Assembly (NCBI RefSeq): GCF_041261445.1
Contig: NZ_JBGCCU010000041.1
Location: forward strand, 1 to 64,000
DNA: 64,000 bases
Reading direction: 5' to 3'
Origin: Catenulispora sp. EB89
GTDB lineage: Bacteria > Actinomycetota > Actinomycetes > Streptomycetales > Catenulisporaceae
The position numbers and the translations under genes were made by a program. The notes below the pieces were generated by a model. It was given only the letters and a program-made list of their open reading frames with translations, ran no database searches and was not told where the DNA came from. This document shows positions 6,370 to 64,000 of this stretch, in pieces (within the stretch, counting starts at the first letter, position 1; each line of letters begins with the position of its first letter).

Positions 6370-9300
6370 TTGACCGACACACGGGTTTTTGCTGCGAACT
6401 TGACGGTCACGGCTGACAACCCACTCCTGCGCGGGCACGTCGTCTACGGGCGCAACATGTTGCCCGGCGTCGGCTATGTGGACCTGGTGCTCCAGGTCCT
6501 CGCCCAGAACGGGTACCCGATGGCAGAGGTCGAGCTACGCAACCTCACCATCGTCACGCCGCTGGTCGCCGGACCGGGCGAGGAGTTGCTGACCACAGTC
6601 GAGGGACGGACCGCACCCGCGGGGGGCTTGCGGGTGGAGGTCCACAGCAGGCGAGGACCGGACGCACCCGTTGTGCGGCACGCGTTCGTCACTGTGCACC
6701 GCACGCCGATACCGGAGTTCACCGAGCGTCTGCCGTTGCCGGTCAGCGGCGCCACCACGGTCACGTCGATGGCCGATCTCTACGCCTGGTGCCGTGGTCA
6801 CGACCTCGTCCACTCCGGACTGATGAAGATCGACGGAACCATCAGCCACCGCGCCGATGACTGGCTGGTCGAGCTGGAACTCCCGGCCGAGCATCACGAG
6901 ACAGCGGACAGGTTCCTGTTCCACCCGGCCCTTTTCGAGGCGGGCCTGCTCGGCGGCGGGGCCGGCATCCAGCAGCCGCATCAAGGCGACCAGGGCGAGG
7001 GCCTGTACCTTCCCCTGGTCTTCGAGTCGTTCCGGGCTGTCGCGCCCCTGGGCAAGCGGTGCTTCGTGCGGTTACCGGCCGGGTCGGCCCGACGCGATGA
7101 CGACTTCGTCCGGCTGTCGGTGGAGTTCTACGACGAGTCCGGCGCGAAGATCGCGGATATCGGCAGGCTGGTGGCCAAGCGCGTGCGGGACGCGGCGTCC
7201 GTCGACATGCCGGAGGGCGGGGCCGTCGTGCTCGCGCGACCGCCGGCGGTCGTCGGCGACCCTCCCGCCGCACCCGGCGCGGACCTCCTGTCGTTCCTGC
7301 GAGAGCTGGTCGCGGCGCGACTGGAACTGCCGGCGGCACGGGTGAACGTCGACGGAAGCCTCTACGAGCTGGGGCTGGCATCGGCCGACCTGGTCTCCCT
7401 GATTCCTCCGTTGGAGGACCGGCTGGGTTGCTCTCTCTCGCCCACGATCATGTTCGAGTACCCGTCGCTCGCGGAGCTGGCCGCCGGGCTGACAGTGACG
7501 GAACCGAACCCGCCGCCAGCCGTGGCCGCCGTCGCCGATGCGGACGTGACCCCGGCGTTGCTGGCCGAGGTCGCCGATCTGCTCGCCGTCCCGGTGACCA
7601 GTCTCGACCCCGACACCGACCTGGCCGACTTCGGCCTGGACTGGGTCGGGATGGCCCGATTGGCGACCCGGCTCAACGATCGCTTCGGCACCGAGTTCAC
7701 CTCGACCGCGTTCGTCGAGGCCGCGACCCTGCGCGAGGTCGCTCGACGGCTTCCGGCGGACCCGGTCGGCGGCCCGGGGCCGTATCCGGCGGTGCGCCGA
7801 GTCGGCGGCACCGAAAGCGGCGTCGAATACCGGGTGCGCTATCGCGGCGACGAACCGTTTCTGCGGGATCACCAGGTGCGGGGTGGGCGGGTTCTGCCTG
7901 CCGTCGTGCAGCTGGAAATCGCGCGTGCCGCGGTCGAACTCGGCGCGATCGGCGCTCGGGTACGACTGGATGACGTGGTGTGGCTGCGCCCGGCGATCTG
8001 CGGGCCGGACGGCCTCGAACTGAGCGTGACCGTGCGAGCCGAGGCCGAGGGCCGCTGGGAGTACACGGTCGAGGACCTCGCCGCGAACGGCACGCGAACC
8101 GTCTGCGGCAAGGGCCGCGCGGTCCGCGTCGAGCCGGCCGAGTCGGCCGAGCCGGCGCGGCGTGACCTGGACGCGCTCCGTGCGGCCTGCTCGACGCGGA
8201 CCTTTGACGCGGCCGAGATCTATCCGCTGTATTCCGACGTGGGCATGGACTACGGTCCGGCGCAGCGCGCGATCACCTCCATCGGCGTCGGCACAGACGA
8301 GCGCGGTCGCGTGCAGGTGCTCGCCGAACTGCGCGTGCCCTCCGAGGCCGGCGATCTGAGCGGCTATCGCCTGCACCCCAGCGTGATCGACGGCGCGTTG
8401 CAAGCCATGATCGGCCTCCGGCTCGCCGACGGCGTCACCGCTGAGCAGCCTCAGGGCCCGTCGTTGCCGTTCGCGCTGGCTCGTGTGGATGCCCTCACCG
8501 AGACGCCGTCGCGGGCCTACGCCTGGGTCCGCAGCCAGACCGGCGGCGCCTCCGCGCCGCTGGACGTCACCGTTCTGGACGAACACGGCCGGGTGTGCGT
8601 GGAACTCACCGGCGTCCGGGTCCGCGCTCTCGCCCCTCGGCCCACCAGGGCCGCGGTCCGGGAGCGCGCGGTCGACCAGGTTCCGGTCGAGCACGGGGCG
8701 AAGGACATCGCGATCGTCGGTGTCAGCGGGCGCTACCCGGAAGCCGCGGACCTCGATGAGTTCTGGCGCAATCTGCGGGCGGGCAAGGACTCCATCCGGG
8801 AGGTGCCCGCCGAACGCTGGGACTACCGCGATTTCACGGACGGTCGCTCGGGCGCCGGGCGCTGGGGTGGCTTCCTCGCTGACATCGACCGGTTCGACCC
8901 GCTGTTCTTCCAGATCTCCCATCTGGAGGCTGAGTACTTGGACCCGCAGGAGCGGCTCTTCCTGCAGTGTGCGCACCACACCCTGGAGGACGCCGGCTAC
9001 ACCGGAGAGCGGTTGGCCACGGCGGGCGGCGCGCTCGGGCGCTCGGGCCGTGTCGGTGTGTACGTGGGCCTGATGTACCTGGAGTACCAGCTGTTCGGCG
9101 CGCAGGCGCAGGAGCGTGGCATGCCGGTCGCGCTGTCGGGCAATGCCTCGACCATCGCCAACCGGGTGTCGTACTTCTACAACTTCAGCGGACCGAGCAT
9201 GGCCGTGGACACGATGTGCTCGTCCTCGCTGACCGCGATCCACCTGGCCTGCGAGGCCATCAACAGCGGACAGTGCGATGCGGCGCTGGCCGGTGGCGTC

Positions 9301-64000: not shown

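Follow-up and report, generated by a model that had tools for sequence, protein, structure and literature searches.

What does the long polyketide synthase (PKS)-nonribosomal peptide synthetase (NRPS) line at the start of contig NZ_JBGCCU010000041.1 of Catenulispora sp. EB89 make, given that its first half looks like that of oxazolomycin and its peptide end does not? The window analysed here comprises bases 1-64,000 of this 91,332-base contig, one of 70 in a draft genome of 11.9 Mb. We consider it probable, with some confidence, that the window encodes a trans-acyltransferase (trans-AT) PKS-NRPS line of the type of the phthoxazolin (ptx) cluster, making a threonine-extended oxazole-triene peptide product. 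This assignment is made because four lines of evidence agree: the domain order, the adenylation codes, the gene order shared with ptxA-H and with a set of sequenced relatives, and the placement of the oxazole cyclase in one clade with those relatives.

The cluster consists of eight consecutive forward-strand frames spanning 6,370-67,819, all of them open over about 61 kb (seven were checked for internal stops and the loader frame was separately read as open); it extends beyond the window to a tandem AT gene. Domain order was obtained with Pfam, searched with module-sized pieces, modules are numbered as in the ptx paper, and the Ptx- and Ozm-like gene names derive from domain order and from published tables and text rather than from direct sequence comparison. 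Gene 1 (6370..18717) is PtxH-like with one extra NRPS module and reads DH-ACP-ACP-DH-KS-psiKR-KR-ACP-KS0-PCP-C-A(Thr)[FkbM MT]-PCP, where DH, KS and KR are dehydratase, ketosynthase and ketoreductase, ACP and PCP acyl and peptidyl carrier proteins, C and A condensation and adenylation domains, and MT a methyltransferase (cMT and nMT being C- and N-methylating types). It is followed by the PtxG-like gene 2 (18717..27791; C-A(Ser)-PCP-C-A(Ser-like)[nMT]-PCP-C(terminal)), and by the OzmN/PtxF-like triene gene 3 (27991..41904; two KS-DH-KR-ACP modules and one KS-DH-KR-cMT-ACP module). The next three are the OzmO/PtxE-like loader gene E (41901..45275; formyltransferase-A(Gly)-PCP), gene D (45305..46438), an OzmP/PtxD/CongE-like PP-loop cyclase, and the OzmQ/PtxC-like gene C (46453..48951; KS-ACP). 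The OzmH/PtxB-like gene B (48963..64000, continuing to 64,724 on the contig) reads KS-KR-cMT-ACP, C-A(Gly)-PCP, KS-DH-KR-ACP, KS8-ACP and KS9 (KS0). The KS modules lack AT domains and a separate AT protein is encoded, the arrangement that defines a trans-AT PKS; in this tandem AT the first domain lacks GHSxG, the second has GHSIG, and a PfaD/ER-like domain is attached. The sequence-only reading had recognized the loader, cyclase and KS-ACP, three KS-DH-KR modules with a final C-MT, KS-KR-MT-ACP and C-A(Gly)-PCP; these lie in long open frames in the same Pfam order, and this order matches the oxazole-triene-hydroxy-dimethyl-amide-glycine half that it had proposed. The identification of gene D as the oxazole cyclase rests on its SGGKDS motif, its location between the loader and the KS-ACP gene, and the published clusters; Pfam recognized nothing in this frame at E 0.001, NCBIfam gave a sub-threshold match, to WbuX, and the PDB a single weak one.

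The family placement comes from a cyclase scan of named genomes, which gave 37 loci; a second search at E 1e-60 found a single match per genome. The regions around 18 of these clusters were read: 13 of ptx type, two of oxazolomycin (ozm) type (S. albospinus and S. alfalfae), S. acidiscabies, Streptomyces NBS 14/10 and NRRL WC-3645; the remaining 19 were seen as cyclase-scan loci only. The ptx-type relatives, 12 actinomycetes and one myxobacterium, comprise ten Streptomyces (S.PNR 29, coeruleorubidus, E2N166, JHD 1, toyocaensis, DHE7-1, 1-11, HB132, cacaoi and coelicoflavus) together with Actinokineospora auranticolor, Actinomadura rayongensis and Enhygromyxa salina; in some of them the cluster is truncated where the contig or the region read stops, and in E2N166 and DHE7-1 parts of the reading are split among several frames. 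In the cyclase tree, calculated from a set that does not contain PtxD itself, the window falls in a 19-row clade (100/99) that includes all 13 relatives with the ptx-type end and is separate from the ozm-type loci. A cyclase match at E 1e-100 is rare, being found in 4 of 394 genomes drawn from the class (the window's own included) and 1 of 14 of the family.

Some members of the wider set depart from this pattern. S. acidiscabies lies inside the 19-row clade but has a different gene B arrangement, its locus being a mosaic in which ptx-type genes 3, E, D and C adjoin an inverted gene B and an AT gene in an ozm-like arrangement. The myxobacterium Enhygromyxa salina carries ptx-type genes 2, 3, E, D and C and part of B on a contig cut at both ends; its cyclase is 79% identical, and a transfer of the ptx-type cluster across phyla is likely. 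In Streptomyces NRRL WC-3645 and NBS 14/10 a C-A-PCP loader stands beside the cyclase in place of F-A-PCP, where F is the formyltransferase, and the available part of gene 3 is 64-65% identical to that of the window. Such a loader perhaps provides an acyl-Gly start, as a curromycin-like 2-methyloxazole would require.

The most distinctive feature of the window is the extra module at the end of gene 1, which follows the PCP (14218..14430) after KS11 and consists of C12 (14563..15870, with HHVIHDA), A12 (15898..17460), a methyltransferase insert placed before the C-terminal end of A12 (17488..18090) and PCP12 (18400..18606). A12 has the code DFWNVGMIH, a Thr code; all codes were read off an alignment and set against reference codes. 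The sequence-only reading had placed a Thr module with a methyltransferase ahead of two Ser-type modules, and the order and the codes agree with this; its gene assignment changes, as the Thr module ends gene 1 and both Ser modules are in gene 2. The insert is of the FkbM type (PF05050, E 1.7e-19; fkbM_fam, E 5.3e-29) and is the only PF05050 match in this genome; it gave no PDB match at E 0.01. Downstream of it lie LPDYMRP and NGKIDR, which we take to be a9-like and a10-like motifs, and AMP-binding_C is matched there, so that the methyltransferase sits between a8 and a9. A precedent exists in KtzH of the kutzneride pathway, in which a methyltransferase at the a8-a9 position of an A domain O-methylates Ser (PMC11355689). 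In both, a methyltransferase interrupts, at a8-a9, an A domain whose known or predicted substrate is a hydroxy amino acid; KtzH, however, acts on Ser, whereas the window has an FkbM-type insert in an A domain with a Thr code, and the two methyltransferases may be of different types. On this precedent the FkbM-type insert probably O-methylates Thr.

The junction after KS11-PCP is visible in 12 of the relatives (the Enhygromyxa contig stops short of it): in 11 it leads straight to the Ser module, giving two NRPS modules after KS11 against three in the window, and only Actinomadura rayongensis has an extra module. The C12 domains of the window and of Actinomadura are sisters (100/100) inside the C14 clade. 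In the A-domain tree, which held 38 of 77 domains (the loader, gene B Gly and other JHD 1 NRPS rows were dropped) and has some long branches, A12 of the window, A12 and A13 of Actinomadura and A14 of S. cacaoi form a four-row clade (100/99) with the codes DFWNVGMIH, DFWGVGMVV, DFWNVGMVH and DFWNVGMVH. This clade points to an exchange of A domains between module positions. We considered whether A12 had been copied from a different NRPS within this genome, and rejected it, the other matches being only 35-45% identical. The Actinomadura module retains the remainder of its A domain and its PCP; its insert keeps the flanks and a glycine-rich motif. Having lost about 80 residues relative to the window's, it falls under every Pfam methyltransferase cut-off and may be inactive. 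A search of the 37 genomes with the FkbM domain gave 15 matches in 13 genomes; the short Actinomadura insert fell below the cut-off of this search and came to light in the Pfam domain reading of its cluster. Only one match shared a contig with the cyclase, a separate S. cacaoi gene that precedes gene 1 by about 1 kb. Streptomyces NBS 14/10, HB132 and S. milbemycinicus have FkbM-type NRPS modules on contigs other than the cyclase's, although in S. milbemycinicus both contigs are shorter than 10 kb and the module could still be near the cyclase.

The second departure, not anticipated by the sequence-only reading, is the loss of the KR of module 8 in gene B. At the gap site (62637..63257) a PEPEPE linker leads from KS8 to ACP8, and the gap is in frame. 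The KS8-KS9 spacing is 251 aa, against 693-772 aa with a KR match in 10/10 ptx-type relatives that hold KS8 and KS9 on one frame. The PEPEPEPE linker occupies 62637-63030, where the KR is missing, and may be a deletion scar. As the KR is absent, the β-carbon of module 8 probably stays a ketone. A genome-wide search for a substitute turned up no close one, the KRs found having 31-40% identity and the best match, KR10 of the cluster, 36%; if a distant KR acted in trans at module 8, there would be no ketone.

The beginning of gene 1 likewise goes beyond the sequence-only reading, with its DH-ACP-ACP-DH start and two further KS domains, of which one resembles KS0. The gene likely starts at TTG 6370, after GGGGGA, in a frame open from 6301. 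DH9 (6370..7230), in which a ten-residue protein motif is present, forms the second part of the bimodule that starts with KS9 in gene B. Its active-site Asp is replaced by Glu (LFEAGLL) in 10/10 sequences compared, the window included, which rules out the Glu as decay specific to the window. Of the two carrier proteins that follow (7273..7770), the first keeps its Ser (GLASAD) and the second lacks it (GLDWVG); in 8 sequences compared, the final ACP of the tandem set, which has two or three members, is without Ser. Next come a second DH-like domain (7798..8655) with HxxxGxxxxP and DGALQ, module 10 (KS-psiKR-KR-ACP, 8698..12240) and KS11 (12409..13851), a KS of the non-elongating type in which the first active-site His is replaced (EAAANGS). 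This His is also replaced in KS9 of the window and 10 relatives, and in KS11 of 11 relatives (three ordinary KS domains were not counted in the KS11 comparison).

In gene 2 the two remaining residues are set by A13, whose Ser code DVWHFSLVD recurs in 12/13 relatives, and by A14, whose code DVWHLGLID is Ser-like. The loader and the gene B module carry the Gly codes DILQLGMIW and DILQFGLIW, respectively. A14 varies across the family: DVPHEALP[VIL] in five relatives, DVKDET[LI][GA]A in five, a Thr code in S. cacaoi, DAQLAVGIA in Actinomadura and an incomplete code in Enhygromyxa. The last module also carries an N-MT-like insert, unlike the FkbM-type insert of the Thr module, and an N-MT was found in module 14 of 8/13 relatives. 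The residue added last by the ptx-type line has undergone several changes, one or more of them through replacement of the A domain.

Gene 2 ends, again beyond what had been noted from the letters, in a condensation-like domain (26469..27782) in which TRPWGVFDGWS replaces HHxxxDG. The motif PWG[VI]FDG is present in the window and 13/13 relatives, as opposed to NYFxxDG in 3/3 ozm-type loci; this count leaves out four C domains of ozm-type and other NRPS loci, all with intact HH. A solved relative exists as a PCP-C didomain under the PDB title 'Special condensation domain in NRPS' (8z0q, 8z0r and 8z0s; E 2.4e-169 including the PCP), and these entries share TRPWG[VI]FDGWS with the end of gene 2. 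Identity to the 8z0q chain is 53% in the window, 49-61% in the best frame of each ptx-type relative and 34-37% in the three ozm-type loci. A search of open-licence papers returned none naming 8z0q, 8z0r or 8z0s and none fitting such a release domain. We infer that this domain, although without the catalytic His, releases the chain.

From these features the following pathway can be proposed. Gene E would formylate and load Gly, gene C would add malonate and gene D would close the oxazole; gene 3 would make the triene with one C-methyl. Gene B would then add the hydroxy/C-methyl unit, Gly (to the stage of the phthoxazolin/inthomycin amide) and further C2 units, with malonyl groups provided by the free-standing tandem AT just past the window and, at the KR-less module 8, the β-carbon probably left as a ketone. 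Gene 1 is predicted to complete the polyketide and add Thr, probably O-methylated by the FkbM-type insert, and gene 2 to add Ser and an N-methylated Ser-like residue before the terminal domain would release the chain. Most likely the product is an oxazole-triene amide of inthomycin type that continues into a ketone-bearing polyketide and then O-Me-Thr, Ser and N-Me-Ser. Calculated from the modules, such a product would be C36H53N5O13 as a linear acid ([M+H]+ 764.371); the ion expected after cyclisation or loss of water is 746.361, and 748.376 is expected should module 8 be reduced and dehydrated. A bolder version, which we hold tentatively and at somewhat less than even chances, is that the line makes an undescribed full-length lipopeptide, in which the inthomycin oxazole-triene half is joined to a keto-polyketide and then to O-Me-Thr, Ser and N-Me-Ser, that phthoxazolin-type amides are only its cleavage products, and that the PWG[VI]FDG fold performs a different, family-wide release reaction.

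Several considerations weigh against the proposed Thr-extended product. The product and all of the chemistry are deduced from sequence, that is from the domains, their order, codes and losses and the family comparison. DH9 carries its Asp-to-Glu change family-wide; the A14 code differs at one position from a Ser code; and the Thr module could work without methylation, as the shortened Actinomadura insert may indicate. The comparisons with ptx and ozm were, moreover, made by the papers' tables and text and not by DNA. Finally, phthoxazolin A is the compound that S. avermitilis accumulates (PMC5764310), so that the long product may be cleaved.

The last point leads to the strongest competing explanation, that only a phthoxazolin/inthomycin amide accumulates, cut after the Gly module, with the precursor made by modules 7-14 lost and the Thr end leaving no lasting trace. 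This we regard as unlikely, though it deserves to be taken seriously: S. avermitilis KA-320 yields phthoxazolin A from a line with modules past Gly, and its authors propose that a larger compound is cleaved (PMC5764310). Yet the same report states that a ptxA mutant also lost several further compounds (PMC5764310), and the retention of the later modules in 13 relatives, combined with the diversified specificity of A14, fits selection on a full-length product. A decaying line, in which the dehydrating bimodule no longer works without KR8 and the cluster is silent or non-functional, is less probable still. The absence from the window of a KR that all ten comparable relatives hold in this bimodule speaks in its favor, but the eight frames are open, the gap is in frame and the other motifs compared are as in the relatives. 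An error of assembly behind the extra module or the KR gap is very improbable: the genome is a draft and the gap adjoins the low-complexity PEPEPE stretch, but the contig is without any N, C12 is sister to the C12 of the same module in Actinomadura, A12 is no copy of another NRPS of the genome and no displaced KR8 occurs elsewhere in it. An ordinary oxazolomycin cluster with minor changes is the least credible of all, for although there is a resemblance to ozm-type loci in genes E, D, C and 3 and in B up to its middle, the second half of those loci differs, the cyclase tree separates them, and no methoxymalonyl genes were met among the contig open reading frames scanned.

Upstream of the cluster, on the reverse strand, lies a gene for an MFS transporter (3742..5247), for which a role in export is possible by association only. 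Directly after the AT gene come genes for a metallophosphoesterase and a 4'-phosphopantetheinyl transferase (contig 68046-69585). Further downstream are two NB-ARC/TPR proteins on the minus strand (contig 70394-72655 and 74475-76937), which are possible regulators, and a phosphotriesterase family gene split in two frames by a stop (contig 79067-80047).

Among known systems, the closest is the ptx cluster of Streptomyces avermitilis KA-320, which makes phthoxazolin A (PMC5764310). It has the same eight gene kinds in one order, genes A (the tandem AT gene past the window), B, C, D, E, 3, 2 and 1 of the present cluster, read backwards, corresponding to ptxA-H. Common to both are the F-A-PCP loader, the cyclase, KS-ACP, the triene modules, KS-KR-MT, the Gly module, a Ser module followed by an N-MT module, and the tandem AT, and non-elongating KS0 domains are likewise reported for ptx modules 9 and 11 (PMC5764310). 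The two lines differ in the number of NRPS modules, four in ptx and five in the window, the extra one being the Thr module with its FkbM methyltransferase; in module 8, ptx having KS-KR-ACP-KS0; in the tandem ACPs, of which the first is reported without Ser in ptx and the last lacks it here; and in the last residue, predicted as Tyr with an N-MT and a P450 in ptx and Ser-like without a P450 match in the window (PMC5764310). The ptx authors predicted Ser and Tyr for their last two modules and in 2018 left the long product, and with it the product of the second half, open (PMC5764310); that half is kept in the 13 sequenced strains read here, a myxobacterium included, and the added module is common to two lineages, those of the window and of Actinomadura. 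The strains named above are public, among them S. coeruleorubidus ATCC 13740, S. toyocaensis NRRL 15009 and Actinomadura rayongensis DSM 102126, so that the question can be addressed in them, and the conserved release domain has a solved relative.

The oxazolomycin line shares the formyl-Gly oxazole start and the triene half, and ozm, lajollamycin (laj; PMC10831120) and the ozm-type loci have in common with the window the Gly module, the tandem AT, one terminal N-MT module and a degenerate terminal C domain. The ozm-type loci, which were assigned by architecture and not via the oxazolomycin record EF552687, nevertheless diverge in their second half, where one C-A(Ser)-nMT-PCP-C module stands alone, as the sequence-only reading had held in calling the peptide end unlike that of oxazolomycin; the window does not have an OzmJ-K-L-type second half. 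Both laj and ozm also have methoxymalonyl genes (PMC10831120); methoxymalonyl-ACP genes were absent from the scanned open reading frames, which are part of those on the contig. The conglobatin (cong) cluster has the F-A-PCP loader and PP-loop cyclase of the window, but differs in its canonical modular PKS (CongB-D), in having no peptide end and in its thioesterase-made C2 macrodiolide (PMC4504003). Mining for the SGGKDS cyclase has yielded the terminal-oxazole products tenebriazine, lenzioxazole and permafroxazole (PMC12299652).

The comparison of domain order that the sequence-only reading had proposed thus sets the window with ptx and not with oxazolomycin, by the papers' tables. Park et al. 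are said to have reported in 2024 that tenebriazine carries two modified amino acids, which would fit a two-module ptx-type end, whereas three residues are expected from the window. No report of a Thr-extended, KR8-less form was met in the open-licence literature, a search to which the oxazolomycin, inthomycin and 2024 terminal-oxazole papers were external, so that overlap with them is possible. The suggestion of an undescribed member or sister family of the oxazolomycins therefore holds in part: a sister line with a different end had already been published as ptx (PMC5764310), and relative to ptx and the 13 relatives with its end, the novelty lies in the Thr module and its methyltransferase. 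Measured against these systems, the locus is not a new family, ptx being published and its relatives present in public genomes; its Thr-extended, KR8-less form is probably a new variant of the ptx-type line, and its full product new.

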